From positions 1-64,000 of the forward strand of contig NZ_KE386914.1 of NCBI RefSeq assembly GCF_000429545.1: DNA of 64,000 nucleotides, read 5' to 3'. Shown here in pieces: positions 5,414-45,417 of the stretch. The DNA comes from Arenibacter certesii DSM 19833. GTDB lineage: Bacteria > Bacteroidota > Bacteroidia > Flavobacteriales > Flavobacteriaceae. Positions within the stretch are counted from its first letter, which is position 1; the number at the start of each line of letters is the position of its first letter. Position numbers and translations under genes: made by a program. The notes beneath the pieces were generated by a model. It was not told the origin of the DNA, ran no database searches, and was given only the letters and a program-made list of their open reading frames with translations.

Positions 5414-6205
5414 ATGAAAATGACAAAAACATATAAATTCAACCATTTTAAAGTGCTATTCATCACTGCAATGTGTTTATTGGGCAATAGCTTAAATGCA
5501 CAGCTGGTCAACATTGAGTCCAAGAGGATGCAAAGTGATTCCATACGGTTTGCCTTAAAAAGCGATTTGTTGTTTGATTATACGGATAATAATGGGGACT
5601 ATTTATTCCAATTGGGCTCTAACGTAACCACGCAACTTAAATCTAAGGACCTTAAAAAAATCTTTTTCTTTATAGGGAATTACAAGCTTATAAGGAGTAA
5701 CGATAAAGATTTTCAGAACAACTGGTTCTTTCACCTACGATACAATCAAAAACTATCTTCATTGTTTCGAATTGAGGCTTTCATCCAAAACCAAAATAAT
5801 ACCAAACTTACCATTGTATCAAGAAATCTCGTTGGAGCAGGAATCCGATTAAAATTGGTTTCTTCTGAATTGACTAGGGTATACGTCGGTAATGCGTATA
5901 TGTATGAGGTTGAGAAGTTAGCGGAATCGGGAGTACATTTTTATAATCATCGTAACAGCTGTTACCTGTCTGCCACACATTCCTTTAATAAAACATCTTT
6001 ACTTCTTACCGAAACGATATATTTTCAACCCTTATACAATGATATTGGAAACCACAGAATTCTATTGCAGATGAAGGCAGAGTTACCACTAACTGAAATT
6101 ATAAGCTTATCTGCTCTTTATAATTTTTCTTACAACAGCTTTCCTGCCGTTAATGATATTGACCGTTCCTCCAATCTTAGCTTAGGGTTTACTTTTACCA
6201 TTTAA
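5414..6205 (+). CDS. Outer-membrane beta-barrel protein, DUF481 family
   Basis: 263 residues with a Sec signal peptide (hydrophobic stretch ending LNAQ near residue 30). The mature part has short alternating amphipathic strands and ends in SLGFTFTI, typical of a small barrel. The pattern fits DUF481 (YdiY-type salt-induced outer-membrane proteins) in Bacteroidota. No ligand can be proposed. It converges on the alcohol dehydrogenase gene with a 34-base gap and no clear terminator between them. Confidence 0.65.
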   Translation: MKMTKTYKFNHFKVLFITAMCLLGNSLNAQLVNIESKRMQSDSIRFALKSDLLFDYTDNNGDYLFQLGSNVTTQLKSKDLKKIFFFIGNYKLIRSNDKDFQNNWFFHLRYNQKLSSLFRIEAFIQNQNNTKLTIVSRNLVGAGIRLKLVSSELTRVYVGNAYMYEVEKLAESGVHFYNHRNSCYLSATHSFNKTSLLLTETIYFQPLYNDIGNHRILLQMKAELPLTEIISLSALYNFSYNSFPAVNDIDRSSNLSLGFTFTI

Positions 6206-6239
6206 CCTAATAAAAAATGAGACATGGATTCGCAATTAC

Positions 6240-7292
6240 TTAATCTTTAAGTGATTTCATATCTATTACAAACCTATACTTTACATCTGAATTAATAACT
6301 CGCTCATAGGCATTGTTAATATCTTGTATATTAATAAGCTCAATATCAGAAACAATATTGTAATCCCCACAGAAATCCAACATTTCTTGTGTTTCTTTAA
6401 TACCTCCTATCAACGAACCTGCAATACGTTTTCTTCCACCAATAATACCGCCACCATGAAATGGCTTTAGATTCTCAACAGCGCCTACTAATACCATTGT
6501 GGCATCAATTTTTAAAAGGGCTATATATGGGTCCATTTCATGTCCGACTGGGATGGTGTTGAGGATAAAGTCGAAACTATTCTTATGTGCGGCCATATCC
6601 TCCTTGTTTTTTGATATCAGCACCTCGTGTGCACCCAAGGCTTTAGCATCCTTAGCCTTGTCTGGGGAAGTGGTTATCATTACCACTTTTGCGCCAAGTG
6701 CATTTGCAAATTTCACCCCCATATGCCCTAAGCCACCCAAACCTATTACACCTACTTTATCCCCTTTTTTCACTTTCCAATGTCTCAAAGGAGACCAGGT
6801 TGTAATTCCGGCACAAAGTAAAGGAGCTGCTGCCGAAGGGTCAATATTATTTGGAATGCGCAAAACAAACTGCTCATCTACTACCACATCAGTAGAATAA
6901 CCCCCATAAGTTTGTTGCCCTTTAATATATTTATCATGACTATTATAAGTAAAGGTGGCGCCATTTTCACAGAATTGTTCCAAATGGTTATTACAAGGCG
7001 GACAATGATGACAAGAATCTACTAAACACCCCACTCCTACTAAGTCACCCTCTTTAAATTTTTTCACACCATTTCCAACTTCCACCACGCGTCCTATAAT
7101 TTCATGTCCGGGAACTACTGGATACTTTGAGTTTTTCCATTCGTTTCTTGCAGTGTGGATATCACTATGGCAGACCCCGCAATAGGTAATATCTATTTTA
7201 ATATCATTTTTACCTACTTCCCTCCGAACTATATCTATAGGTTTTAAGTCTTCTGTGGCAGCTGTTGTGCCAAATGCTTTAATTGTTCTCAT
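6240..7292 (-). CDS. Zinc-dependent NAD(P) alcohol dehydrogenase, CAD/YahK type
   Basis: 350-residue medium-chain dehydrogenase. Catalytic-zinc region CGVCHSD has C38 and H42 and is followed by PGHE (H63, E64). The structural zinc cysteines are C94, C97, C100 and C108. The dinucleotide motif is GLGGLGHMG near residue 183. The arrangement is that of the cinnamyl-alcohol-dehydrogenase / AdhC / YahK group, which reduces aldehydes with NADPH in the cytosol. Cofactor preference is not certain from sequence. Monocistronic by position. Confidence 0.9.
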   Translation of the reverse strand: MRTIKAFGTTAATEDLKPIDIVRREVGKNDIKIDITYCGVCHSDIHTARNEWKNSKYPVVPGHEIIGRVVEVGNGVKKFKEGDLVGVGCLVDSCHHCPPCNNHLEQFCENGATFTYNSHDKYIKGQQTYGGYSTDVVVDEQFVLRIPNNIDPSAAAPLLCAGITTWSPLRHWKVKKGDKVGVIGLGGLGHMGVKFANALGAKVVMITTSPDKAKDAKALGAHEVLISKNKEDMAAHKNSFDFILNTIPVGHEMDPYIALLKIDATMVLVGAVENLKPFHGGGIIGGRKRIAGSLIGGIKETQEMLDFCGDYNIVSDIELINIQDINNAYERVINSDVKYRFVIDMKSLKD

Positions 7293-7465
7293 CTTTTTAT
7301 TTTTATAAATAGTCCGAGGATAGTGTAAGGGGTATTTTTATATCCTAGGATAGATAAATAGTTCCTTTTAAGGTACAACTAATTCATCTAAAATTATTAG
7401 AAAGATCTTTAGTAATTTATAAAATTAACTCCAGGCTTAGTTTACCGGATACTTTGCTGTACTTA

Positions 7466-9457
7466 CTATTCCTTTAATTCGTAACGTAGTAGCCTCAGGG
7501 CATTTAGCACTACCACAAGGGTAGAGCCTTCATGAATCGCTACGGCAATCCCAATATTAGCAAGTCCAAAGATTGTTGCAGGTACTAATAATGCCACAAC
7601 TCCCATACTAATCCATAAGTTTTGTTTTATGATACGTTTAGATTCACGGCTCAATCCAATAACAAATGGGAGACTCTCTATCTTGTCTGACATTAAGGCC
7701 ACATCTGCCGTCTCCAAAGCTACGTCGCTTCCCGCAGCTCCCATAGCTATACCAACGGTACTAATAGCCATTGCGGGGGCATCATTTACACCATCCCCAA
7801 CCATGGCAACCTTGTTATTATTCTGCTTTAATTCTTCAATGGCTTTCACCTTATCTTCTGGCAGCAAATTTCCTTTGGCATCGGTAAGCCCTATTTGCTT
7901 GGCAATGGAATCTCCCACCCTTTGGTGGTCTCCAGTAAGCATAATCATTTGTTTTATCCCAATTTTTTTTAATCTTTCCAGGGTTTGGGATGCCAATTTA
8001 CGAGGTACATCCATAACACTTATTAATCCAATTAATGTATCGTTATAGCCCACTAGCATTACTGTATTTCCATACTGCAACAATTCATCCATTTGCTGGT
8101 GTATTTCTAGACCTACTGGAATTTGGGCGTCCTTCATAATTTCTACATTTCCAATATAAACGCTACCTCCGTTATAATTTGCCCGAACTCCTTTACCTTG
8201 TATAGATTGTAAGTCAGAGGATTTATGCTTATTTACCGTACCATATTCAGACATTATATCTTTAGAAATAGCTCTTGCCAAGGGGTGATTACTCAGACTC
8301 TCTACATCTAGTACCATTTCTAAAAACTCTTCTTGATTAAACCCGTTCATGGGCATAATATTCGTCAACCTAGGTTTCCCCTCAGTAAGCGTTCCGGTCT
8401 TATCGAAGGCAATTATTCGGAGGCTTCCCATATCTTCCAATGCGCGACCTCCTTTTATAAGGACCCCTTTCTTGGCTGCTCTTGCAATAGCGCTTAATAC
8501 GGCACTAGGTGTAGATATTGCCAGTGCGCACGGACTAGAGGCTACAAGTACGCTTATGGCCCTATACAAGCTTTCCTTTACTGATTCATCTATCACTAAA
8601 TGTGCGAAGGACAGCGTTATTACCATAACAATAACGGCAGGAACAAACCATTTTTCAAATTTTTTAGTCTGTAACTGGGTAGGTGATTTCTTGGTTTCTA
8701 CCTCACTAACCATTTTTATTAGACGAGAAATAGTAGTGTCCTTACTTAGCTTTAATACCTTTACTTCTATTAGGTTATCTCCGTTTAGAGTACCGGTGAA
8801 AACTACATTTGATGCTTCAATCTGATCAAAATTAGGCAACTTGGTGTCTGGAGCAATCGCCGTTTTATCAACTGGAATGCTTTCTCCAGTTATAGAGGAT
8901 TGGTCTACACTACTACTCCCCTTTACAATAACTCCATCTGCAGATATTTGACTATTGGGCTTTACTACTATAATATCGTCTATTTGCAAATCCTCTACAG
9001 CGACTTCTTTAATAGTACCTCCTTTTCTCACCATAGCGGTCTTTGGGGAAAGTTCTCCTAATGCTTCAATAGATTTTTTAGCCTTATTTAACGCGTGGTG
9101 CTCTAAGGCATGCCCCAAACTAAATAGAAACAATAGTAAAGCTCCTTCTGCCCAACTATCTATATATGCAGCTCCTATAGCCGCGGCAATCATTAAAAAA
9201 TCGATTTCAAACTCCCCTTTCCTTGTTTTTACTATGGCTTCCAACAAAGTGAAATACCCTCCAAAAAAATAGGCTGCTATATAGCTGCTTAGGGCTGTCC
9301 ATTCTGGTAACTGCGTTAGTTTGGATAAAATAAGACCTAAAAAGAAGAATACGCCACTTAAGATGGCGAAATATAACTCCGTTTTCTCTCCGAAAATTCC
9401 TCCGTGATCATGATCATCAGTACTGCTGTTTTTTAATTGGGATTGTTCAGTTTCCAT
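7466..9457 (-). CDS. Heavy-metal P1B-type ATPase (Zn/Cd/Co exporter type), no HMA domain
   Basis: Signature motifs from an ATG at 9457: SPC (C310) in the metal-binding membrane helix, phosphorylation site DKTGTLT (D352), SNHPLA of the P1B nucleotide domain, MLTGDHQ and GDGVNDAPA. SPC rather than CPC or CPx points to the CadA/ZntA-like divalent group in many Bacteroidota. There is no CxxC HMA domain; instead a short DDHDHGG His/Asp stretch near residue 15-20 may bind metal. The frame opens 18 bases earlier at a TTG, but the ATG is preferred. It lies 56 bases after a Fur-family gene read the same way, suggesting metal-responsive co-regulation. Export of zinc or cadmium is inference from family. 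Confidence 0.88.
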   Translation of the reverse strand: METEQSQLKNSSTDDHDHGGIFGEKTELYFAILSGVFFFLGLILSKLTQLPEWTALSSYIAAYFFGGYFTLLEAIVKTRKGEFEIDFLMIAAAIGAAYIDSWAEGALLLFLFSLGHALEHHALNKAKKSIEALGELSPKTAMVRKGGTIKEVAVEDLQIDDIIVVKPNSQISADGVIVKGSSSVDQSSITGESIPVDKTAIAPDTKLPNFDQIEASNVVFTGTLNGDNLIEVKVLKLSKDTTISRLIKMVSEVETKKSPTQLQTKKFEKWFVPAVIVMVITLSFAHLVIDESVKESLYRAISVLVASSPCALAISTPSAVLSAIARAAKKGVLIKGGRALEDMGSLRIIAFDKTGTLTEGKPRLTNIMPMNGFNQEEFLEMVLDVESLSNHPLARAISKDIMSEYGTVNKHKSSDLQSIQGKGVRANYNGGSVYIGNVEIMKDAQIPVGLEIHQQMDELLQYGNTVMLVGYNDTLIGLISVMDVPRKLASQTLERLKKIGIKQMIMLTGDHQRVGDSIAKQIGLTDAKGNLLPEDKVKAIEELKQNNNKVAMVGDGVNDAPAMAISTVGIAMGAAGSDVALETADVALMSDKIESLPFVIGLSRESKRIIKQNLWISMGVVALLVPATIFGLANIGIAVAIHEGSTLVVVLNALRLLRYELKE

Positions 9458-9476
9458 TGGCTTTATTAGTTTCAAT

Positions 9477-9510
9477 CAAAAATACCATTAAAGAGCGTGC
9501 AATGGTATTG
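9477..9510 (-). promoter_or_regulatory. Inverted repeat plus -7 element between fur-like gene and ATPase
   Basis: AATACCATT (9481-9489) and AATGGTATT (9501-9509) are perfect 9-base arms with an 11-base loop. On the minus strand the second arm runs into TTTTTG, so it can terminate the Fur-family transcript; the same bases hold TATTTTTG (9477-9484), a TAnnTTTG -7 match for the ATPase. It may act as terminator, operator, or both. Confidence 0.5.
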
Positions 9511-9513
9511 CAA

Positions 9514-9927
9514 TTATAGATTACAATTATCGCATATACCCTTTACAAGCATATTAATGTCTTCTGGCACAAAACCATCGGGAAGGCTAATTGTTGGAAT
9601 CCGATGCTCGGTTAAACAAGTAGTTTGGTTGCATTGGGTACAATGAAAGTGCAGATGGAGGTCCCCATGTTTCCCTTCAACCGCGTCGTGTTTACAAAGA
9701 GCATATTTGGGAATCCCCGTTCCATCATCTATCTGGTGGACTAGACATTTGTCTTCAAAGGTTTTAAGGGTACGGTATAAGGTGGTTCTGTCCGATCTTT
9801 CAAAATTATCCTCCACAGCTGTTAAACTCACAGCAGAACTCTGGTCCTGCATAAATTGGTGGACTAAAATACGCATGGCCGTAGGACGGATACCCGAATC
9901 CCTTAACTGTTTTTCAGAATTTTTCAT
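9514..9927 (-). CDS. Fur-family metalloregulator
   Basis: 137 residues. The N-terminal winged helix contains SDRTTLYRTLKTFED, the classical Fur-family recognition helix. The C-terminal dimerisation part has CTQCNQTTC and a terminal CDNC, the two CxxC pairs of the structural zinc site, plus a HLHFHC cluster that supplies sensing-site histidines. The gene is followed by a metal-exporting ATPase, so it may be a Zur-like or general divalent-metal regulator for this pair. Which metal is sensed (Fe, Zn, Mn, or peroxide as in PerR) cannot be decided by eye. Confidence 0.88.
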   Translation of the reverse strand: MKNSEKQLRDSGIRPTAMRILVHQFMQDQSSAVSLTAVEDNFERSDRTTLYRTLKTFEDKCLVHQIDDGTGIPKYALCKHDAVEGKHGDLHLHFHCTQCNQTTCLTEHRIPTISLPDGFVPEDINMLVKGICDNCNL

Positions 9928-10147: not shown

Positions 10148-10735
10148 GTGTCTCTAGACTCCCATTCTCATTATAAAATTTACAAACCTTTTGGCATTCT
10201 AAGTCAGTTCATTTCTAATGATGACAAGGAAGCTCGAAAAAAAAGATTTCTGGGAGAACTTCACTCCTTCCCTCAAGATATTATGCCAGTAGGAAGATTG
10301 GATGAAAAATCGGAAGGACTCTTATTGCTTACTACTGATGGTAAACTAAGCGATACCATAAATAGGATGGGTATAGAGAAAGAGTATCATGTTCAATTAG
10401 ATGGGGAAATTACCACAGAGGCCATGGCTTTATTGCAAGAAGGGGTTGAAATAGGATTTCATGGTAAAAGGTATTATACTAAGCCATCAAAACTCCACTA
10501 TTTGGAAGAAGCTCCTACCTATTTTGAGCCAGACCCTAAACTTAGAATAGGAAGGCACAGACCCACATCTTGGATAAGTATCACTATTACCGAGGGTAAG
10601 TTTAGACAGGTGCGTAAGATGACAGCGGCGGTCGGATTCCCTACCGTGCGATTAATAAGGGTAAGGATAGGTACTATAGGTTTGGAAAACTTGACCCCAG
10701 GTGAAGTGGTGCAAGTAAAGGAGATATCATTATAA
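10148..10735 (+). CDS. rluE: 23S rRNA-type pseudouridine synthase, RluE/RsuA family
   Basis: 195 residues, short as in RluE. The catalytic aspartate is D52 in GRLDEKSEGLLLLT, the family motif, and GKFRQVRKM is the second RsuA/RluB/E/F signature. There is no S4 domain, as in RluE. It should convert one uridine in 23S rRNA (U2457 in E. coli for RluE) to pseudouridine. The start is a GTG; no ATG occurs before the conserved KPFG motif, so GTG is favoured. Standalone gene. The exact target position is inferred from the short form only. Confidence 0.82.
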   Translation: MSLDSHSHYKIYKPFGILSQFISNDDKEARKKRFLGELHSFPQDIMPVGRLDEKSEGLLLLTTDGKLSDTINRMGIEKEYHVQLDGEITTEAMALLQEGVEIGFHGKRYYTKPSKLHYLEEAPTYFEPDPKLRIGRHRPTSWISITITEGKFRQVRKMTAAVGFPTVRLIRVRIGTIGLENLTPGEVVQVKEISL

Positions 10736-10937
10736 AAGGGGTACTAAACCCTATCCCTTTAGTCGACTTTCTATTAATAATTCATCATAGCTGCAATTTT
10801 ATCTTTAGATCACAGGATCAATGGACGAAGGAAAGCCGCTACTAGGAGCACTATAAACTTTAAGATGACTTTTAAACATATTGTTATGGCATTGATGATT
10901 AGTATAATCCCTAAAACCAATATTTAGGACGTTATCT

Positions 10938-11645
10938 TTAATGGTTCCTTTTATCTCTGGTAAAAGGTACAAACCGCACTGGAGCTAGAATTTCTTTTTT
11001 AAGTTTTCCGTCCTGTTTGGTTAATTTTATAAGATAGGTACCCCCATCCTTATCATCGACAGGGATAACCATTCTTCCACCATCCTTTAATTGGGAGATA
11101 AGGGGTTCGGGAACTTCTTCCGCCCCGGCAGTAACCATTATGGCATCAAATGGAGCCTGTTCTGGCCATCCGTGATATCCATCCCCCCATTTCACCGAAA
11201 CGTTGTTATATTCCAAAGTGTCCAATCGGTTTTTTGCCGAATTTGCCAAGTCCTTAACTATTTCAATAGTATAGACGGAGGCTACGATTTCTGCCATTAC
11301 CGCAGCTTGGTATCCAGATCCAGTACCTATTTCTAACACATTATCAGTTGAATTTAAATCTAGACTTTCTGTCATAAATGCCACGATATAGGGTTGGGAA
11401 ATAGTTTGATCATTACCTATTGGAAGCGCATGATCATTATACGCTTGTTTAATTAGGCTATGCGGGACAAATTTATGCCTAGGCACCTTTTTCATGGCTT
11501 CTAAAGTAGCAGGGTCGTTAATGCCCCTTGCAATAAGTTGATTATTAACCATGTTCTTTCGTTCTGTCGCCCAGTTTACTTGTGCCATCGTAATAGAATT
11601 GATGAAAAAAATAAAACCCAATGCAAATAAATAAAGGATACGCAT
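10938..11645 (-). CDS. pcm: Protein-L-isoaspartate O-methyltransferase with signal peptide
   Basis: 235 residues. The PIMT pattern is clear: ITISQPYIVA-like substrate motif (here QTISQPYIVAFM), SAM motif I VLEIGTGSGYQAAVMAE, and GGRMVIPV. It repairs L-isoaspartyl residues using S-adenosylmethionine. The first 21 residues form a hydrophobic stretch ending in SITMAQ, which reads as a Sec signal peptide, odd because SAM is a cytosolic cofactor. No internal Met would remove it while keeping the conserved core start near residue 30 except M32 in KNMVNNQ. Either it is exported or the N-terminus is a membrane anchor. Confidence 0.88.
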   Translation of the reverse strand: MRILYLFALGFIFFINSITMAQVNWATERKNMVNNQLIARGINDPATLEAMKKVPRHKFVPHSLIKQAYNDHALPIGNDQTISQPYIVAFMTESLDLNSTDNVLEIGTGSGYQAAVMAEIVASVYTIEIVKDLANSAKNRLDTLEYNNVSVKWGDGYHGWPEQAPFDAIMVTAGAEEVPEPLISQLKDGGRMVIPVDDKDGGTYLIKLTKQDGKLKKEILAPVRFVPFTRDKRNH

Positions 11646-11855
11646 TTAATTCAAATTTAGAAAAGAAGCTTCTAGTTACCCTTTTAAGATACAACATTGT
11701 TATCAATTTAAAAAGAGCTAAATCCTTAATGCCAATGGTACTATGATATGTAAATAAAATATTATATCCCGATTTCGTGGTGTACAATATGATAGTTCGT
11801 CTCTTCCACGATCAAAATATTTTATTCCCCTGAAGCAGGTAAAAACTCCTAAACT

Positions 11856-11893
11856 GAAAAAGGACCGATTAACTTATTAATCGATCCTTTTTA
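11856..11893 (-). terminator. Terminator of the DUF1080 gene
   Basis: AAAGGAcCGATTAA pairs with TTAATCGaTCCTTT around a short loop, with one internal mismatch; T-rich sequence follows on the minus strand. It is 22 bases past the DUF1080 stop. Confidence 0.75.
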
Positions 11894-11914
11894 AACTTTA
11901 AATCCCATTTTCAC

Positions 11915-12613
11915 CTATTGAGGTTCACTATCACTTAATTCCTTTATGGGGGTTAGCATCACTTTTCTAAATTCCACCTCTGCTCCTTCGGCTTGTATTG
12001 CAATTTGCCCACTTTTGGCTGTGGCATTATAACCATGGTTTACCAAATCGCCATTTAGCCAAACCTTTATTTCATTGTCTAAACATTCTATGGTCATATA
12101 ATTCCATTCTCCTAAAGGATTTTCAGATCCATCTGTTAGGTTTTTTATCCTACGTAATTTCCCCTCGGTAATACCCCAATCTGCTTTAGGTCCCCTTTTC
12201 TCCTCCATGTTATCCACAGTAATGTCTTCCACAATACACCAAAAGTCACCCGCATTTTCATGCATCATTTGCACTTCTATGGATTTCGGAAACATATCAT
12301 AAAGCGATCTTGGAGTTGAAGCAAAGACTAATACCCCGCAATTTCCAGGTTTTCCAGGAAATCGGTATTCCACTTTTAACCTAAAGTTGGAATAGTTGGC
12401 GTCAGTAATCAAATGCCCCTGAGGTTCACCCAAACTTACCAATTGGTTATTGCGAACAATAAAAGGGTTTATGGCATTTGGATTACTGTCCATTTGTGGT
12501 ACATCTACATGCCATCCTGTAAGATCCTTTCCATTAAAAAGCGGGATAGATTTTTGGGCGTTGCACAGCGCCACAGCTATAAAAAAGAAAAAAGTAAGCA
12601 AGGAACTTCTCAT
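11915..12613 (-). CDS. Secreted DUF1080 (3-keto-disaccharide hydrolase-like) protein
   Basis: 232 residues with a Sec signal peptide ending near CNAQ. SIPLFNGKDLTGWHV is the hallmark start of DUF1080, followed by NFRLKVEYRFP, CGVLVF and a late EVEFRKV strand, the jelly-roll LamG-like fold of the family. DUF1080 proteins include 3-keto-glycoside hydrolases in Bacteroidota. Here it is isolated from any oxidoreductase of that pathway, so the substrate is unknown. Monocistronic with a good terminator. Confidence 0.85.
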   Translation of the reverse strand: MRSSLLTFFFFIAVALCNAQKSIPLFNGKDLTGWHVDVPQMDSNPNAINPFIVRNNQLVSLGEPQGHLITDANYSNFRLKVEYRFPGKPGNCGVLVFASTPRSLYDMFPKSIEVQMMHENAGDFWCIVEDITVDNMEEKRGPKADWGITEGKLRRIKNLTDGSENPLGEWNYMTIECLDNEIKVWLNGDLVNHGYNATAKSGQIAIQAEGAEVEFRKVMLTPIKELSDSEPQ

Positions 12614-12733
12614 ATGTATGGTCTAAATAAGTTTATATCACCTTAAACTGATCTATAAATATAACATTTGATTTCAACGCACCAAAGAGATGGAAACTTA
12701 CCTGGCTATTATCTTTTCCTATTATAATACTAT

Positions 12734-13354
12734 TTATTCCCGAATTTTAAGTTTGGAAAATACATAGCACATTTCTGTAGCAATTTGAGTGCTCCGTTCC
12801 ATATATTTTACCTCCTTTATTGGGGTGTCATCAAATAGTTTAGGATCTTCATAGGGTAAAGGTATACGTTTTTCTGCTCCAGAAATCACTGGACACGCTT
12901 CGTTGGCCTCAGTGCAGGTCATTACTGCTAGGAATTGTGATTTGGGATTAAATTCATGGTCAAAAGTTTTTGAAAATCCGATTACCGCCGGCTGATTAGG
13001 AGCGAATTTTATAGCGTATATCGGATTAGTCCCACTCGCCAGCAATTTGATATCAAAACCGATATTTTCTAGGGTCTTAATCACCATAGGAAAAATGGCG
13101 GTAGCTTCAGTCCCCCCAGAATAACTATTAAAATTATTTAAATTGTACTGATACGCCATAACCTGGCCCCATACCTGTGCTAAATGACTTCTTCTAGAAT
13201 TATGGGTGCAAATAAAATTTAGGCGTATTGCGTCTTTATTATTAATACAGGATTGTAAATGATCAATCAAAGGTTGGAGCGACAATTTCCTTTCTTCTGC
13301 TATGGAATTTAGATCTAAGTTTTCTACAAATACCCTAATAGTATTGAATAACAT
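12734..13354 (-). CDS. Arsenate-reductase-like low-MW phosphatase family protein
   Basis: 206 residues. The phosphate-binding loop is CTHNSRRS with C49 as nucleophile (CX5R), followed by HLAQVWG. VMTCTEANEACPVISGAEKR and PYEDPK match the thioredoxin-linked ArsC group, with cysteines that could form the disulfide relay. Expected role: arsenate reduction or protein-phosphotyrosine hydrolysis in the cytosol. It is translated just after the DUF6428 gene (17-base gap), a pairing seen in Bacteroidota ars loci, but no ArsR regulator or arsenite exporter is adjacent. Function as a true arsenate reductase is therefore only probable. Confidence 0.8.
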   Translation of the reverse strand: MLFNTIRVFVENLDLNSIAEERKLSLQPLIDHLQSCINNKDAIRLNFICTHNSRRSHLAQVWGQVMAYQYNLNNFNSYSGGTEATAIFPMVIKTLENIGFDIKLLASGTNPIYAIKFAPNQPAVIGFSKTFDHEFNPKSQFLAVMTCTEANEACPVISGAEKRIPLPYEDPKLFDDTPIKEVKYMERSTQIATEMCYVFSKLKIRE

Positions 13355-13371
13355 ATTACTCTTTCATTTTA

Positions 13372-13845
13372 TTAACAACACCCAGATCCTGGTGCGCAAG
13401 AGGTTTGCTGATTGGTGACCAACTCTTTTAGTTTCATCTTAGGCTTTACCTCTGGGATACCACAGTTATCCTTCGCTAAACAGTCCGTATGCTTATTGGT
13501 CAGCAAGAAATAGGTTCCATTAAATTCCAGTCCATATTTGCCTATGGTTTCTCCCTGATATTCCACCTCTATTTCTTGGTTTTTTAAGTCCAAGGTCTTT
13601 TCAGAAAGTTCAATAATATGAATCAATTTTTCTGGGTGAATTCGGTGATCGTAATCATTGGCTTCCCAGAGTTGAAAATTGATAACCTCTTCCTTTCTCA
13701 CTTTCCCACCACAATCTATAAAATGTTTATGAACCTTTCCCACTTCGGTAACATGAAAGTGACTGGGTACAAATTGTCCATTGGGCAATTGGAATGCAAT
13801 AGTTTCTAAAGTCTGTAAATGTGCTTTAATTTCTTCTAGTTTCAT
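13372..13845 (-). CDS. DUF6428-family protein, Cys-rich tail
   Basis: 157 residues. The opening (LPNGQFVPSHFHVTEVGKV) and the mid-part HTDCLAKDNCGIP match the DUF6428 family that accompanies arsenate-reductase-like genes in Bacteroidota. It ends SCAPGSGCC, a thiol-rich tail that may bind metalloid or metal. No enzymatic motif is visible. It is the first gene of a two-gene unit with the ArsC-like protein. I do not know a proven function. Confidence 0.75.
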   Translation of the reverse strand: MKLEEIKAHLQTLETIAFQLPNGQFVPSHFHVTEVGKVHKHFIDCGGKVRKEEVINFQLWEANDYDHRIHPEKLIHIIELSEKTLDLKNQEIEVEYQGETIGKYGLEFNGTYFLLTNKHTDCLAKDNCGIPEVKPKMKLKELVTNQQTSCAPGSGCC

Positions 13846-39196: not shown

Positions 39197-39454
39197 TTAT
39201 TGTTTCTCCAACAATTTTTGGTTCACAATTCTTAGGGCATCTTTCACTGTTTTCATCTGCTCCATATCCTCATTTTCCAAGGTTATTCCATACGCATCTT
39301 CTACGTCCAAAATAATATCTACCAAGTTAGCGGAATTTATGTTGAGCTCTGATATAAAATTACTCTCTTCTGTAACTTCCGATATGGATACATCTTCGGG
39401 CAGATATATTTTAACGATCTCTTTTAGCGTTTCGTAATGGGATTGATTGGTCAT
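39197..39454 (-). CDS. Acyl carrier protein of the type III PKS operon
   Basis: 85 residues, acidic, four-helix ACP pattern (IYLPEDVSISEVTEES, then ELNINSANLVDIIL, then VEDAYGITLENED). The phosphopantetheine serine is S41 in an NSAN context, where housekeeping ACP has DSL, so it is likely a dedicated carrier. Last gene of a six-gene operon; two bases separate it from the ketosynthase gene. No phosphopantetheinyl transferase is in the window, so a general one must load it. Confidence 0.9.
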   Translation of the reverse strand: MTNQSHYETLKEIVKIYLPEDVSISEVTEESNFISELNINSANLVDIILDVEDAYGITLENEDMEQMKTVKDALRIVNQKLLEKQ

Positions 39455-39456
39455 AA

Positions 39457-40728
39457 TTAATCGGGTTTATAAGCCTTAAATATAATACAAGCATTAACGT
39501 CTCCAAAACCAAAACTAGCTTTAGCTATCATATTTGGGTTATATGAAATAGTTTTTAATGGAATTTTGGTTACATCCACTCTTTTCAATATTTCTGGATG
39601 TAAATCATCGCAATTACTATTCCCAAAAACCATTTCTTCTTTAAACTGTAACACGCTTGCCACGGCCTCCACACTTCCCGAAGCCGCCAAACAATGCCCT
39701 ACTAAGGACTTGGTCGTATTAATATAGGGAAAGTCTTTTCCCGATCGCCCTAGGGCTTTACTCCAATTACTAATTTCGTCCGCATCTTTGGAGGTTGCGG
39801 TAAGGTGTCCGTTAATTACATCTATCTCATTTTTATTTAAATTGGCATCAGAAAGAGCCGCTTGAATACAACGTTGGACCCCTTCGCTATTGGGTGCAGT
39901 CATGCTTCCATTACCTCTTTGACCCCCACTATTTACAGCCCCGCCCAATACCTCGGCATAAATGGTAGCTCCTCTTGCCATGGCATGATCCAAAGATTCC
40001 AATACCAATGCTCCAGCTCCGCTACCAGGGACAAATCCTGCAGCAGTAGCACTCATCGGCCTACTTGCTCTTAAAGGATCGCTATTGTATTGTGTAGGTA
40101 GAATACGCATGGCGTCAAAACCACCCCATATATAAGGCCCACTATCACTACAACTCCCTACTAACATTATCTTGGCCTTACGAGACCTAATACGTTCCAT
40201 TCCAAGGATAATAGCCTCTGTACCGGTAGCGCAGGCCGATGAATTTGTGGTTATTTGGTTTCCCAATCCTAATTTACCACCAAGGTAAGCACTAATGCCA
40301 CTCGCCATGGTCTGCATTACTGAAGTACTTCCCAATCGCCGTGTTTTCTTGCTATCTATAAGATGTATAGATTCCCTAAATTTATCCGTTCCTAAAATAC
40401 CAGTTCCAAAAATAACCCCACTATCCCAATCCGGTTTATCCTTTCCCATAGGCTTCAATCCGGCATCTGCCCAAGCCTCGGCTCCTGCGATAAACCCATA
40501 AACCAAACCACTGCTATTTAATCCTTTTCGTTCTAAAGGCGTAAAATTATTGTCCATATCAAAATCAGTAATTTCAGGTTTTCCTGCAATTTGGCATCCA
40601 AATCCTAAATCTGCTAATTCTTGATGAAAGCTAATTCCGCATATACCATATTTTAGGCTGTGGGTGAAATTGGTAAGACCTACTCCATTGGGGGCGCAGA
40701 CTCCTAATCCCGTAATTACGACTCTCAT
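39457..40728 (-). CDS. Beta-ketoacyl-ACP synthase (KAS II / FabF-like), operon-specific
   Basis: 423 residues of thiolase fold. The active-site triad is complete: C166 in NSSACATGTEA, H308 in NGHLTATSKD (HGTxT of FabF is HLTAT here) and H345 in KSLVGHCLAASG, so it is a condensing enzyme, not a chain-length factor. It probably extends an acyl chain on the neighbouring ACP. Its ATG overlaps the dehydratase stop by four bases. Divergence from housekeeping FabF and the context argue for a dedicated lipid-starter role. Confidence 0.9.
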   Translation of the reverse strand: MRVVITGLGVCAPNGVGLTNFTHSLKYGICGISFHQELADLGFGCQIAGKPEITDFDMDNNFTPLERKGLNSSGLVYGFIAGAEAWADAGLKPMGKDKPDWDSGVIFGTGILGTDKFRESIHLIDSKKTRRLGSTSVMQTMASGISAYLGGKLGLGNQITTNSSACATGTEAIILGMERIRSRKAKIMLVGSCSDSGPYIWGGFDAMRILPTQYNSDPLRASRPMSATAAGFVPGSGAGALVLESLDHAMARGATIYAEVLGGAVNSGGQRGNGSMTAPNSEGVQRCIQAALSDANLNKNEIDVINGHLTATSKDADEISNWSKALGRSGKDFPYINTTKSLVGHCLAASGSVEAVASVLQFKEEMVFGNSNCDDLHPEILKRVDVTKIPLKTISYNPNMIAKASFGFGDVNACIIFKAYKPD

Positions 40729-41171
40729 GATATATCTTTTTTAAGCATTCCCGTCAAGCTTCCCTTACAGACTAATTTTCCTTGGGAATTATACATTTTC
40801 ACCTCACATTTTAATTTTTGGAATCGGAAGTAAATTTTTTCGGATTTTACGGTAACAAATTCTAAAGGATATACAGGCAAATAGAAATCCATTTGGCTGC
40901 TGCTCATGGCTATTTTCACATTTTCTAAACTTGCCCCCTCTTTTTGTAATAAAAAGATTCCCAAAGCCACCAGTCCAATCTGCGCACAACATTCAACTAA
41001 AATTACTCCGGGTGTAATTGGATGGTTTTTAAAATGACCTTTGTAAAAATATTCATTCTCTTTAAACGTATAGGATCCTTCCACGTAATTTTCATTGATT
41101 TCTAAAAGCGAGTCTACAAATAAAAATGGCTTAGAATAAGGGAGTCTCGCTATGAGGTGCTGTAAATTCAT
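40725..41171 (-). CDS. FabZ/FabA-like 3-hydroxyacyl-ACP dehydratase
   Basis: 148 residues, hotdog fold. H46 in YKGHFKNHPITPGV and E60 in ILVECCAQIG are the catalytic pair of FabZ-type dehydratases; LPYSKPFLFVDSLLEI is the usual N-terminus. It should remove water from 3-hydroxyacyl-ACP during starter-chain synthesis. Translationally coupled with the ketosynthase. No ketoreductase or enoyl reductase is in the operon, so those steps would use housekeeping FabG and FabI. Confidence 0.88.
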   Translation of the reverse strand: MNLQHLIARLPYSKPFLFVDSLLEINENYVEGSYTFKENEYFYKGHFKNHPITPGVILVECCAQIGLVALGIFLLQKEGASLENVKIAMSSSQMDFYLPVYPLEFVTVKSEKIYFRFQKLKCEVKMYNSQGKLVCKGSLTGMLKKDIS

Positions 41172-41261
41172 TTTCTATCTTGTTTCACTTAAATTCCTAC
41201 AGTATGCCCCTCTACATCTAACAGGAGGTCTGTTTTAAGGGTAGTTCTAATTTAAAAAGTC

Positions 41262-42317
41262 CTACCATTCAATAAGTACCCGTTGTGCCGAAAATCCAGG
41301 GCCAAAACTCAGCATGAGTCCTTGGTCACCTATAGGAATATCTCTTTCCATGAACCGCTCCAAAACGTATAGAACCGTGGCACTACTCATATTACCATAC
41401 AACCGAAGGGTTTCTCTGGTATCATCTATATTCTTTCCCATTTTACCGAACAACTGCTCTACAGTCTCCACAATTTTTTTTCCTCCTGGATGAAAAATTA
41501 AATGCTCGACGTTTTCAATATTGCTGCCCAATTCACTTAAAAACGGATGAATAATATCTGGGAAATGGTGGGCAATAGTTTCTGGTACGGCAGGATCTAA
41601 TATCATTTTTAAACCGGAATTGGTAAGGTCAAATCCCATTAATTGAGTGGTATCGGTAAAATGATACATTCCCTCGCCTAGTATCCTAGGTCCTACCGCA
41701 TTTTCTTCAGAAGACAGCAATACACAAGCGGCACCATCCCCAAAAATTGCTGCACTAACCATGTTTGCCATGGAATAATCTGAAAGTTGGAATGTGGCAG
41801 TCGGACTTTCCACTGCTACAATGGCAGCCCTTTTACCTGGGTTGGACTTTAAGAAATTACGGGCATAGATCAATCCAGAAATTCCAGCCGCACAACCCAT
41901 TTCCGTTACTGGTAAACGAACCACATTACTTCTAATGGAGAGCACGTTTATTAGGTAAGCATCTAATGACGGAATCATAATACCTGTGCAACTGACTGTT
42001 ATAATATAATCGATACTATTAGCCTCCCAATTGCTCTTGGCCAGTGCCTTTTGGAGCACTTTACTTCCCAATTTTTTTACTTCACGGACATATATATTGT
42101 TCTTATCTTCAAAAGAAGTGGTCGTAAACACCTCTTCCGGACTCATTATGCTATACCGTTTATCTACAGCTGCTCCCTCAAAAATTTTTACAATCTTTCT
42201 TTTAAATCGATCCTCTTGTCCATGTAACCAATTATTTACCAAGGGCAATATATCCTTGGTTTCCCTACTGTAAGCAGGTAAAGCTGTGGTAACGGCTACT
42301 ATTCTGGTTTCAGCCAT
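41262..42317 (-). CDS. Type III polyketide synthase (chalcone-synthase family)
   Basis: 351 residues, normal for the family. The Cys-His-Asn triad is intact: C142 in MGCAAGIS, H276 in IFHPGGKK, N309 in LYGNMSSAT; GFGPG-like SFGPGFSAQRV closes the fold. It extends an acyl starter with malonyl-CoA and cyclises the chain, giving resorcinols, pyrones or phloroglucinols. Cyclisation mode cannot be read. It lies 13 bases from a methyltransferase and upstream of FAS-like genes that may supply a fatty acyl starter, so an alkylresorcinol or alkylpyrone-like lipid is the best guess. Confidence 0.93.
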   Translation of the reverse strand: MAETRIVAVTTALPAYSRETKDILPLVNNWLHGQEDRFKRKIVKIFEGAAVDKRYSIMSPEEVFTTTSFEDKNNIYVREVKKLGSKVLQKALAKSNWEANSIDYIITVSCTGIMIPSLDAYLINVLSIRSNVVRLPVTEMGCAAGISGLIYARNFLKSNPGKRAAIVAVESPTATFQLSDYSMANMVSAAIFGDGAACVLLSSEENAVGPRILGEGMYHFTDTTQLMGFDLTNSGLKMILDPAVPETIAHHFPDIIHPFLSELGSNIENVEHLIFHPGGKKIVETVEQLFGKMGKNIDDTRETLRLYGNMSSATVLYVLERFMERDIPIGDQGLMLSFGPGFSAQRVLIEW

Positions 42318-42330
42318 AATTTGGTTGTTC

Positions 42331-43035
42331 TTATTTTAATCTAATTATCCAAAGGTACCTGAACGCCCATTTCCAATTTAGCTCATGGTTTGCCTCAGGG
42401 AACAGTTTGGAAAGTTCTTGTAATTCGCCCTTGGTGAATGCACTTTTTATAGAAACTAGACCATCGTATTTTGCTATCTTTGTTTGCATAAAAATAACAC
42501 TATAAACCTGAAATAGATAATATGCAATCTTGCTTCTTTGCAAGTCGTTTATAATGATCCCTATACACGCACATGAAATAGCTTTCCGTAAAAACTCTGG
42601 AATCTCCTCGTTTTTAAAATGGTGCATGGTAAGGGTACACAATATAATATCACATTGTAATTCATTTGGATCCATTAATAAAACGTCCCTTTGCAAATAG
42701 GTGATATTGCGATGATTTATAGAATTTATTCTTGCGATGCCCAAGGCCTTCTCATTAAGGTCTACACCTACTAGATTTACTTCAATCCCAGTTGATTTAA
42801 AATAATTAGCCACTTCCCGCAGCATATGCCCATCCCCGCACCCAAGATCTATTATGGTATAACTTTTTTTAGGATTATTTTTTATTAGTTTTTTAATTGC
42901 ATTCAGGGTGATGGGAAAGCCGTTTAATATTTTATTGACCTTATTAATATCTAGCAATACTTTTTTTAATGAGCCGGCATCCAAATTTGGATCGTCCATT
43001 ATCTCGCTTTCTGTACAACGCTGGGTAAAATTCAT
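42331..43035 (-). CDS. Class I SAM-dependent methyltransferase of the PKS operon
   Basis: 234 residues. SAM motif I is IIDLGCGDGHML; later LVGVDLNEKALGIAR and DIILCTLTMHHF fit motifs II-IV of small-molecule methyltransferases. Its start overlaps the oxidoreductase stop by four bases, so it is coupled with it. The likely substrate is the type III PKS product (O- or C-methylation of an aromatic ring); that is context-based inference. Confidence 0.88.
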   Translation of the reverse strand: MNFTQRCTESEIMDDPNLDAGSLKKVLLDINKVNKILNGFPITLNAIKKLIKNNPKKSYTIIDLGCGDGHMLREVANYFKSTGIEVNLVGVDLNEKALGIARINSINHRNITYLQRDVLLMDPNELQCDIILCTLTMHHFKNEEIPEFLRKAISCACIGIIINDLQRSKIAYYLFQVYSVIFMQTKIAKYDGLVSIKSAFTKGELQELSKLFPEANHELNWKWAFRYLWIIRLK

Positions 43036-44156
43036 AACGGATCGATTGGTCTTCCATGGGTTGCTGTGATCAACCTACTAACAAGATAAGGAGAATTGTT
43101 AATTAACTGCATTGCCGAGTGGGAAATAGTTTCATTCAATAATATCCCCTGCAATTGTTTCCCCACCCATATTCTCTTCCCAAATGTCCTATGCCATTGC
43201 GTATTATAATCTTTCTCTAATTGATGGCGCTTGTAATTTGGCTTAGTAAAATAGTGATGGATTAATTCAGCTACCATTTTAGCACTATGAACCGCCATTG
43301 CCATACCGTTACCACAAAAAGGATGTATAAGTCCGGCAGTATCACCACACATTAACACATGATTCTCAACTGTACTCTTTTTGCCAAAAGATATCTGTGC
43401 TATGCTCAATGGTTTTTCAAATAGCATTTGTGACTCATTTAAGAACTTATTTAAGTAAGGGTTTTTGGATAGCACATTTTGGTGAAAGCGCTCCATGTTT
43501 TTTTCCTTTTTAAAACTAGTATAAGAAACCAGATAACAGAAATTAACAGCTCCAGATTCGGTTTTTGAAAGACCTCCATAGCCTCCCCTAAAATTGTGGA
43601 GTTCTACCATGTTATCTGGAAAGGTATCTAACTGATAATGGGCTTTAACACCTATCCAGGGCGATTTCCTATTAATAAATCCGCGATTGAGCTTTTTATC
43701 TAAGGCTTCTCGTTTTCCATAGGCACCTACAACAAATTTAGAAGTGTAATTAACCCCATTGGTATCGGAAACGTTAAAAACATGGTCTTCAAACCTTATT
43801 GAGGTTACGTGTTCTGAAATAATTGTAATGTCTTGTAATATGGCCTTTTTATAAAGCGCATAATCTAATGCATATCTACTTATCCCGAGTCCGCCCAACG
43901 GTAAATTTGCACTAATGGAGTTGCCATTTACCGTACTCAGTAGCATTTTGTTTATCTGAATATTCTTAGGCAAGGAAACCCCCAAACTTTCCAAATAGGG
44001 AACTATTTCCATGGAAACATATTCTCCGCAGACCTTATGATGGGGATATTCCAGACGTTCAAAAACAGCAATAGTATAATGATATTTGCTTAAATGAAGT
44101 GCAGTGGTCAATCCTGCCAGTCCACCTCCAATGACAATTACATCATAATCATTCAT
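43032..44156 (-). CDS. FAD-dependent oxidoreductase (geranylgeranyl-reductase / aromatic hydroxylase type)
   Basis: 374 residues. The dinucleotide motif GGGLAGLTTALHLSK opens the protein (8-24), and the second FAD motif is CGDTAGLIHPFCGNGMAMAV near residue 275. The family includes geranylgeranyl reductases, halogenases and flavin monooxygenases; no halogenase WxWxIP motif is present. As first gene of the PKS operon it may hydroxylate or oxidise the aromatic product, as flavin hydroxylases do in phenolic-lipid clusters. The reaction is not proven by sequence. Confidence 0.88.
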   Translation of the reverse strand: MNDYDVIVIGGGLAGLTTALHLSKYHYTIAVFERLEYPHHKVCGEYVSMEIVPYLESLGVSLPKNIQINKMLLSTVNGNSISANLPLGGLGISRYALDYALYKKAILQDITIISEHVTSIRFEDHVFNVSDTNGVNYTSKFVVGAYGKREALDKKLNRGFINRKSPWIGVKAHYQLDTFPDNMVELHNFRGGYGGLSKTESGAVNFCYLVSYTSFKKEKNMERFHQNVLSKNPYLNKFLNESQMLFEKPLSIAQISFGKKSTVENHVLMCGDTAGLIHPFCGNGMAMAVHSAKMVAELIHHYFTKPNYKRHQLEKDYNTQWHRTFGKRIWVGKQLQGILLNETISHSAMQLINNSPYLVSRLITATHGRPIDPL

Positions 44157-44231: not shown

Positions 44232-44924
44232 TTAATTGGTCTGTCTACGAGCTTCCTCCTTAAGTGCCTCGTTAGCTATAATTGCCAATTCCACTCTACG
44301 ATTTTTTGCTTTGCCTTCTACAGTTGAATTATCTGCTTTAGGTTGGGTCAACCCATACCACTTTGTGGTCAATCGGTCTCTTGAAACACCTTTTGATACC
44401 AAATAATCTGTAACCGACTCCGCACGTTGTTTGGAGAGATTCATATTATAATCAGCGGCACCGGCACTATCTGTATGTCCTTCTACCAAAATATTAGAAT
44501 CTGGGTATTCTAACAGCACTCCTGCCAACTTGTTCAAAGTGGTAGCAGAAGCCCCCTTAACAGCAGATTTATTGGTATCAAAATAAACTCCGGCATCCTC
44601 ATTAAAAGTAACATTGATACCCTCTCCTACACGGGTAACTTCTGCACCTGGAATTTCTTCCTCGATACGTTCTGCTTGTCGGTCCATTCTATCGCCTATA
44701 TACCCACCTGCAACACCACCAACAACAGCGCCAATAATAGCTCCAAGGGCAGTGTTATTTCCCTTGCCTACATTATTACCAATAACACCTCCAATGACCG
44801 CACCACCGGCAGCTCCACCAGCAGCACCTCTTTGTTTATGATTGGTATTCTTAATGGCAGTACAACTAGTGATGGTAGCCATTATCATTAAAATGGATAA
44901 ACTACTTACAAATATCTTTCTCAT
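44232..44924 (-). CDS. OmpA-family lipoprotein with glycine zipper
   Basis: 230 residues. A lipobox ATITSC ends the signal, then a glycine-zipper region (GAAGGAAGGAVIGGVIG..., about residues 33-78) able to insert in the membrane, then an OmpA C-terminal peptidoglycan-binding domain with GHTDSAG and LSKQRAESVTDYL. It anchors the envelope to peptidoglycan. It follows the lipocalin-like gene by four bases, same strand, so they form one transcript. Confidence 0.92.
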   Translation of the reverse strand: MRKIFVSSLSILMIMATITSCTAIKNTNHKQRGAAGGAAGGAVIGGVIGNNVGKGNNTALGAIIGAVVGGVAGGYIGDRMDRQAERIEEEIPGAEVTRVGEGINVTFNEDAGVYFDTNKSAVKGASATTLNKLAGVLLEYPDSNILVEGHTDSAGAADYNMNLSKQRAESVTDYLVSKGVSRDRLTTKWYGLTQPKADNSTVEGKAKNRRVELAIIANEALKEEARRQTN

Positions 44925-44928
44925 TTTA

Positions 44929-45417
44929 TTATTCGTTTTTTATAAATTCATAAACTACGGTTACGGGTGTTCCCTCTACCGATACTTTTGACTCAAGTCT
45001 CATACGGGACTCGCTCAACGAAGCGATGTCTAACCTGTATCCCTGACTACCAGAAATATCTTTGTATCTGTCATCTACAAATTTAAACTGAAGTTGGGAG
45101 TTCATTCCATCTCTTTCCAAGATGGACCATCGGATAAAACGCTCTTCTGGTCCGCAATCAGCACTATTTGCCAAAACATAGCTTCCTGTACTATTGTTGT
45201 TTCTAAAGTACCAACTACTGCCCTCAAAACAGTTTGAAGGCGCATCGTTAAACAATTGAGATTTAAAGTTGCCTTGAGCACCAGTGTAGGTCACACTTTT
45301 TAACAGCCAATACCCATCAATAGTTTTTCTATCCTTCATTGCGGATTTGGACACCGAACAGGAAGACAACAATCCTACGGCCAATAATAGCACAAACAAT
45401 GACTTCTTTGCATGCAT
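44929..45417 (-). CDS. Lipocalin-like lipoprotein
   Basis: 162 residues. Signal peptide with lipobox LLSSC. DGYWLLKSV is the lipocalin-type GxW start, followed by beta-strand alternation and two cysteines that could form a disulfide (C in SNCFEG and in ADCGPEE). Small bacterial lipocalin-like proteins bind hydrophobic ligands or stabilise the envelope. Ligand unknown. It is in one unit with the OmpA-family gene. Confidence 0.8.
   Translation of the reverse strand: MHAKKSLFVLLLAVGLLSSCSVSKSAMKDRKTIDGYWLLKSVTYTGAQGNFKSQLFNDAPSNCFEGSSWYFRNNNSTGSYVLANSADCGPEERFIRWSILERDGMNSQLQFKFVDDRYKDISGSQGYRLDIASLSESRMRLESKVSVEGTPVTVVYEFIKNE

Follow-up and report, generated by a model that had tools for sequence, protein, structure and literature searches.

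A type III polyketide synthase (PKS) operon with its own set of fatty-acid-type genes lies in the genome of Arenibacter certesii DSM 19833, in the 64,000-nucleotide stretch of contig NZ_KE386914.1 that we analysed as a whole (positions 1 to 64,000, here the window). It occupies positions 39197-44156 of the minus strand, and its six genes are an inherited cassette, encoding a flavoprotein, a methyltransferase (MT), the PKS, a dehydratase (DH), a ketosynthase (KS) and an acyl carrier protein (ACP). We read it, with moderate confidence, as a pathway to a lipid polyketide that includes a dedicated chain builder, in which acyl-ACP would pass to the type III PKS and the resulting ring would be methylated and oxidised.

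Six minus-strand open reading frames (ORFs), checked with the curated cut-offs of Pfam, together fill the interval exactly, and each has a match above cut-off to the families given here. The first in the direction of reading is a flavoprotein resembling FAD-dependent monooxygenases (43032..44156, 374 aa; DAO, Lycopene_cycl and FAD_binding_3), followed by an S-adenosylmethionine-dependent class I MT (42331..43035, 234 aa; Methyltransf_25), the PKS (41262..42317, 351 aa; Chal_sti_synt_N and _C), a FabZ-like 3-hydroxyacyl-ACP DH (40725..41171, 148 aa; FabA), a FabF-like KS (39457..40728, 423 aa; ketoacyl-synt N and C) and the ACP (39197..39454, 85 aa; PP-binding). The flavoprotein and MT genes overlap by 4 bases, as do those for DH and KS; 13 bp separate MT from PKS and 2 bp KS from ACP, and the longest gap is one of 90 bp between PKS and DH (41172..41261). 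The coordinates and families thus bear out a preliminary description of the window, made from the letters alone, which had proposed six tightly spaced genes on one strand. It had also called the active sites of both condensing enzymes intact, and they are: the PKS triad C142-H276-N309 is invariant in all 71 cassette PKSs that we compared, and the KS has its catalytic triad Cys166/His308/His345 as well as Lys340, all four residues being invariant in 68/68. The same holds (68/68) for His46 and Glu60 of the DH and for the phosphopantetheine-bearing Ser41 of the ACP and the preceding N40. The motif around this serine reads N-S-A in the cassette ACP; the usual one is D-S-L. Scans for promoters and terminators in the window gave counts no higher than in shuffled sequences (17 vs 17.6 and 5 vs 4.5, respectively).

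To place the operon among its relatives, we searched a family sample of 149 genomes, in which each genus is represented once, and 395 genomes of the phylum, with the same limit for a PKS match (E 1e-20). In the family sample 49/149 genomes match, 48 of them with an identity of 63-100% and G072 with one of 35%. Some type III PKS is present in 173/395 genomes of the phylum sample, and among the matches listed the identities split cleanly: 33 genomes reach at least 67%, and the others stay at 36% or below; three of the 33 (G226, G281 and G391) fall outside the family. Every one of 18 Arenibacter genomes has the cassette PKS. A scan of named genomes, in which the best 80 of at least 567 PKS relatives were kept and which overlaps with the loci described below, includes Maribacter, Zobellia, Salegentibacter, Gillisia, Salinimicrobium and Aquimarina; among these best 80, flavoprotein, MT and PKS are present in all and KS in 76, the four loci that lack it being short or ending contigs. 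The cassette-type PKS was not found in 229 plasmid records, where the best match has 34.7% identity and all lie below 60%. A record labelled as a Stenotrophomonas rhizophila plasmid (CP031730.1, 137340-146407) has a type III PKS and an ICMT gene beside fosB, rsgA and rpmG, and judging from these genes the DNA looks like that of a Bacillus-type organism.

Profiles built from the cassette genes were then used to search the window and the stretches around 70 further PKSs, giving 71 cassette loci. The order flavoprotein-MT-PKS-(ER)-DH-KS-ACP-(PPTase), where ER is an enoyl reductase and PPTase a phosphopantetheinyl transferase, each present in some loci, holds together with the strand without a single exception. 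The preliminary description had made its reading depend on gene order in relatives; with that order conserved in 71/71 loci, this check does not refute it. Flavoprotein and MT are present in 71/71, and DH, KS and ACP all together in 67/71. The remaining four are two loci without DH, KS and ACP at that place (L057 and L072, where the cassette stops after the ER), one without DH (L066) and one at a contig end (L073); a cassette-type KS lies on another contig in the genomes of L057 (G144) and L073 (G066). In L066 (G118) the flavoprotein gene is split into two ORFs and the KS is just 55% identical, and this locus is possibly a decaying copy.

The KS is tied to the PKS beyond physical linkage. A cassette-type KS (at least 60% identity) occurs in 33/395 phylum genomes, and the cassette PKS is present in exactly this set of genomes; co-inheritance of the two is obligate in this sample and argues that the KS is part of the pathway. 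Together with the order and strand kept in 71/71 loci, the identical genome sets rule out a chance neighbourhood. One KS match (G230:C2:180181-181440) contains an in-frame TAA. The A. certesii genome encodes three FabF-like KSs, and the one in the cassette is only 33-38% identical to the other two and set off from them by a branch with 100/100 support. Besides the window PKS, this genome has just two weak type III PKS matches, at 24-25% identity (E 4e-6 and 3.5e-4).

The two optional genes extend the fatty-acid-like part of the cassette. The ER, a protein of the short-chain dehydrogenase/reductase type, is encoded between PKS and DH in 46/71 loci, which in the window is the site of the 90-bp gap. 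All 46 carry the Y-x6-K signature of enoyl reductases and the best NCBIfam model is FabL (150 bits, below its cut-off of 328); on these two grounds, an assignment as ketoreductase was replaced. A PPTase-type gene, identified from one scanned member (L044, Pfam PF01648), directly follows the ACP in 17/71 loci; A. certesii has two PPTases, both encoded outside the cassette. Both additions fit a fatty-acid module. No ketoreductase was recognised within the cassette.

In the cassette profile search, the ER was not found in 18/18 Arenibacter genomes, nor in L050, L051, L052, L067, L076, L083 and L084. L050 retains a 62-codon ORF with a weak ER match; in the 90-bp gap of the window no remnant reading frame was recognised. 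On a tree of 67 loci, presence and absence of the ER change six times, at least five of these by well-supported branches, which would place losses at the base of Arenibacter and several times elsewhere. It is therefore conceivable, though doubtful, that KS and DH without an ER build a polyene or enoyl starter in Arenibacter, giving an unsaturated or conjugated, pigment-like lipid that differs from that of its relatives. The loss throughout the genus speaks for this, as does the search of the A. certesii genome, in which no ER orthologue was found elsewhere (best match 31% over part of the query). A FabI-like protein that is probably present in this genome (C23) could nevertheless stand in. It scores 122 bits with model NF005717, whose cut-off is 337, and as the same search matches 13/14 control genomes, we do not take this model as proof of a FabI. 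The number of ketosynthases also speaks against a polyene: the cassette has a single KS with an intact Cys and no second KS-like gene, unlike aryl-polyene and highly reducing type II PKS systems, in which the KS is paired with a chain-length factor.

The nearest point of comparison for the other half of the cassette is a widespread trio of type III PKS, MT and flavoprotein genes, of which the srs operon of Streptomyces griseus is an example. For this comparison we used 12 Bacteroidota trio loci. The cassette PKS is only 24-32% identical to their PKSs, and in the PKS tree the two are split by a branch of length 1.42 with 100/100 support. The cassette falls on the side of Pks11, CylI, THNS and the ICMT type and joins the branch that contains THNS weakly (84/30); several rows of the tree are long-branched. 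It thus belongs, as far as the tree can tell, to a lineage other than that of the trio PKSs. Consistent placements come from the best sequence matches in PDB, which are Pks11, THNS (1u0m) and CylI, and from an AlphaFold2 model (predicted local distance difference test score, pLDDT, of 85), for which Foldseek ranks CylI (solved with a resorcinol product, 8yw7) and Pks11 above THNS. As these nearest structures are lipid-handling PKSs, they favour a lipid product. The DarB model matches none of the cassette proteins of the window, the PKS included.

We also took out 29 loci with distant type III PKSs, and in 29/29 no DH, KS or ACP was found near the PKS. Twelve of them are trios with MT and flavoprotein, and three, from family f24, have weaker matches to both. 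A small ICMT-like gene, of which one member was scanned, adjoins the PKS in 6/10 of the distant loci examined for it (L081, L085-L093). L081 is the locus of G072, the same-family genome whose PKS, at 35% identity, is of a different type and groups with THNS.

The tailoring pair has another history. The cassette flavoproteins are 31-47% identical to those of the trios and nest among the Bacteroidota trio flavoproteins (98/97 branch); the MTs, at 22-48%, form one clade with the trio MTs against the f24 outgroup, with separate groups inside. Flavoprotein and MT are, by this measure, kin of the trio enzymes. Mean identities between cassette and trio are 39.8% for the flavoprotein, 30.8% for the MT and 28.0% for the PKS, compared to 50.8%, 43.6% and 71.8% within the cassette, so that the PKS is the best conserved of the three inside the cassette, yet the least trio-like. 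Taken part by part, this ancestry suggests that the tailoring enzymes were taken from a trio and brought together with a fatty-acid module and with a PKS from a different lineage.

What the pair does is less sharply indicated. We propose that the flavoprotein is a ring hydroxylase or oxidase and that the MT methylates the ring at O or C; the best NCBIfam models, GG-red-SF and PRK06202, respectively, both score below cut-off. The AlphaFold2 model of the flavoprotein (pLDDT 88) is closest by Foldseek to flavin halogenases and, lower down, to geranylgeranyl reductase, 3-hydroxybenzoate 6-hydroxylase and other flavin monooxygenases, and sequence matches in PDB also favour halogenases. Flavin-dependent halogenases carry the motif WxWxIP; it is absent in 71/71 cassette flavoproteins, and we rejected a halogenase despite these matches. 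The fold leaves unsettled whether the reaction is of the hydroxylase or the geranylgeranyl-reductase type. Trio operons are described, in the accessible text of the reports, as making alkylresorcinols and methylated polyketide quinones (PMC10896814, PMC9927152, PMC5916927), and the kinship of the flavoproteins therefore favours a phenolic or quinone lipid here.

The chain builder points in the same direction. In the phylum sample, five genomes encode a KS that is 45-51% identical to that of the cassette. In two of them, sister modules with the order ER-DH-KS-ACP-PPTase adjoin DarB and DarH genes back to back: in L244 the module at 6077-9587 stands beside the pair at 10354-13845 (DarB 635 bits, DarH 454), and in L245 the module at 6092-9688 beside 10213-13729 (615 and 443 bits), all above the NCBIfam cut-offs of 550 for DarB and 300 for DarH. 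By gene content, these are dialkylresorcinol clusters with a predicted acyl-ACP line of their own, and the neighbourhood favours a phenolic lipid for the cassette as well. A 300-aa gene that matched no family precedes DarB. The preliminary description had seen the operon as a combination of srs-like tailoring and ars-like (Azotobacter) chain supply. The tailoring half of that idea holds in the trio kinship of flavoprotein and MT, and a chain supply is upheld by the shared occurrence of KS and PKS; its pedigree has to be redrawn, as the PKS lies off the trio lineage and the nearest relatives found for the chain builder appear to be the modules beside DarB/DarH in two genomes, not parts of srs or ars.

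From these parts we propose the following pathway. KS and DH would assemble or lengthen a special acyl chain carried by the dedicated ACP, with the ketoreductase and malonyl transferase borrowed from housekeeping fatty-acid synthesis and the ER either dedicated or, in Arenibacter, borrowed too. The type III PKS would take the acyl-ACP as its starter, add malonyl units and close the ring to a long-chain alkylresorcinol or alkylpyrone, and this ring would then be methylated by the MT and hydroxylated or oxidised by the flavoprotein, the end product being a lipid of phenolic or quinone type. An acyl-ACP starter is favoured because type III PKSs can accept one. Acyl-ACP as the true starter, the length of the chain, the type of ring, the sequence of the tailoring steps and a quinone as end product are predictions from the gene sequences.

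Four points weigh against this pathway, and they lower our confidence in it without overturning it. Two concern the PKS itself. Among the NCBIfam models it scores highest with that of DpgA, which works without a fatty starter, although the score of 175 bits lies below the cut-off of 425. A column that has Trp in 12/12 trio and 3/3 f24 PKSs, and which we take to correspond to W281 of ArsB, a resorcinol signature, is Phe229 in 71/71 cassette PKSs; it is Trp in Pks11, by its PDB name a pyrone synthase, and Leu in CylI, solved with a resorcinol product, so that the residue does not decide the ring type. The DpgA match could mean that malonyl-CoA is the only substrate, from which the PKS would form a small aromatic as THNS and DpgA do, with MT and flavoprotein modifying it later and the lipid module acting on the product or being unrelated. 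That THNS ranks second among the distinct enzymes matched in PDB, and that the cassette groups weakly with its branch, agrees with such a product; Foldseek, in placing CylI and Pks11 before THNS, does not, and a dedicated chain builder in the operon would be superfluous; we consider a small aromatic very unlikely. The PKS was also examined for a sign of ACP docking. The net charge of residues 32-56, at the tunnel mouth, gives docking no support (2.8 in the cassette vs 2.7 in the trio and f24 PKSs), and differences from the same PKSs at R37, K44 and R346 are single residues that prove nothing.

The other two points concern the chain builder. One 99% complete genome (G138, locus L072) has flavoprotein, MT, PKS and ER, and the cassette KS was not found anywhere in it; with the KS of G144 on a separate contig, this indicates that tight linkage is not essential. 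Moreover, the KS-DH-ACP modules of the other three genomes with a KS of 45-51% identity, in loci of family f24 (L246, 5279-9643; L247, 6723-11872, the only one with an ER; L248, 5621-9871) stand beside GNAT-like and family 2 glycosyltransferase genes and no ring-forming enzyme, so that phenolic lipids are not the only setting of such a module. Counting the cassette, the DarB/DarH clusters and these loci, this kind of module would serve at least two ring-forming systems and one other. A PKS that uses housekeeping acyl-CoA or acyl-AcpP, while the fatty acid made by KS, DH and ACP is separate and either attached later, perhaps as an ester or a side chain, or shifting the chain-length pool, would accommodate both observations: the variety of partners would suit a general supplier, and G138, which retains its PKS without the KS, a housekeeping starter. 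Specificity for acyl-ACP is, besides, not readable from a PKS sequence. We consider this alternative unlikely nonetheless, as no acyltransferase that could join a second chain was found in the cassette and the inheritance of PKS and KS together in 33/33 phylum-sample genomes argues against a separate fatty acid. On balance, we retain the pathway in which the dedicated line feeds the PKS.

In Flavobacteriaceae, clusters with a type III PKS are well known and common, making up 9% (PMC7440613) and 10.74% (PMC10734526) of antiSMASH clusters in two reports whose accessible text names no product. One widespread lineage of them now gains a definite anatomy: the tailoring pair derives from trios, the PKS comes from a different lineage, and the acyl-ACP module is portable and shared with dialkylresorcinol clusters. 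Our literature search, mostly without subscription journals, found no description of the gene set or its product, in agreement with the preliminary description, which knew of no characterised product from such a Bacteroidota cluster. The cassette allows a clear test of how a dedicated type II line feeds a type III PKS, and it points to a lipid, in very common marine bacteria, for which chemists have not yet searched. One might go further and, taking the polyketide quinones of mycobacteria as a model, imagine a new, family-wide class of polyketide quinone lipids with redox activity, whose non-trio type III PKS would draw on no source but its own type II acyl-ACP line; in a third of the sampled genera, such lipids could act alongside menaquinone as a second electron carrier or as a redox lipid of the membrane. 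We regard this as a long shot. Upstream of the operon on the same strand, at 44232-45417, lie genes for an OmpA-like lipoprotein of the YiaD family and a lipocalin-like protein, a position kept in many relatives.

Among known systems, pkq (Mycobacterium smegmatis and Streptomyces MNU77), hid (picocyanobacteria) and a planctomycetal operon combine a type III PKS, a class I MT and an FAD oxidoreductase as the cassette does, and in the accessible text on the planctomycetal operon the role of the FAD protein is still open (PMC10896814). We liken these three by their description; the nearest flavoproteins found are those of the Bacteroidota trios, at about 40% mean identity. The cassette differs from trios in its PKS, which comes from another branch, and in the added KS, DH, (ER), ACP and (PPTase), genes of which the accessible text on pkq, hid and the planctomycetal operon makes no mention. 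The ars system of Azotobacter (ArsA-D) is not known to include an MT or flavoprotein of the cassette kind. It shares with the cassette the presence of dedicated fatty-acid synthase genes by a type III PKS, and its ACP-bound chains are described, in the accessible text, as going directly to ArsB and ArsC (PMC6274091) from a multidomain type I synthase (PMC5916927). Likened by description, then, ars has a type I synthase where the cassette has separate type II proteins. We know of no dedicated KS/DH/ER set for germicidin synthase or SCO7671. Both are, according to the accessible text, type III PKSs that accept hexanoyl-ACP (PMC6274091). CylI of the cylindrocyclophane pathway has the closest fold to the cassette PKS by Foldseek, at 26-27% identity. 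It acts after an acyl-assembling PKS, and the chain builder upstream of it is a modular type I system. Finally, the DarA/DarB dialkylresorcinol clusters share with the cassette the sister ER-DH-KS-ACP-PPTase module, but whereas a KAS III-like enzyme closes the ring there, the cassette has a type III PKS.

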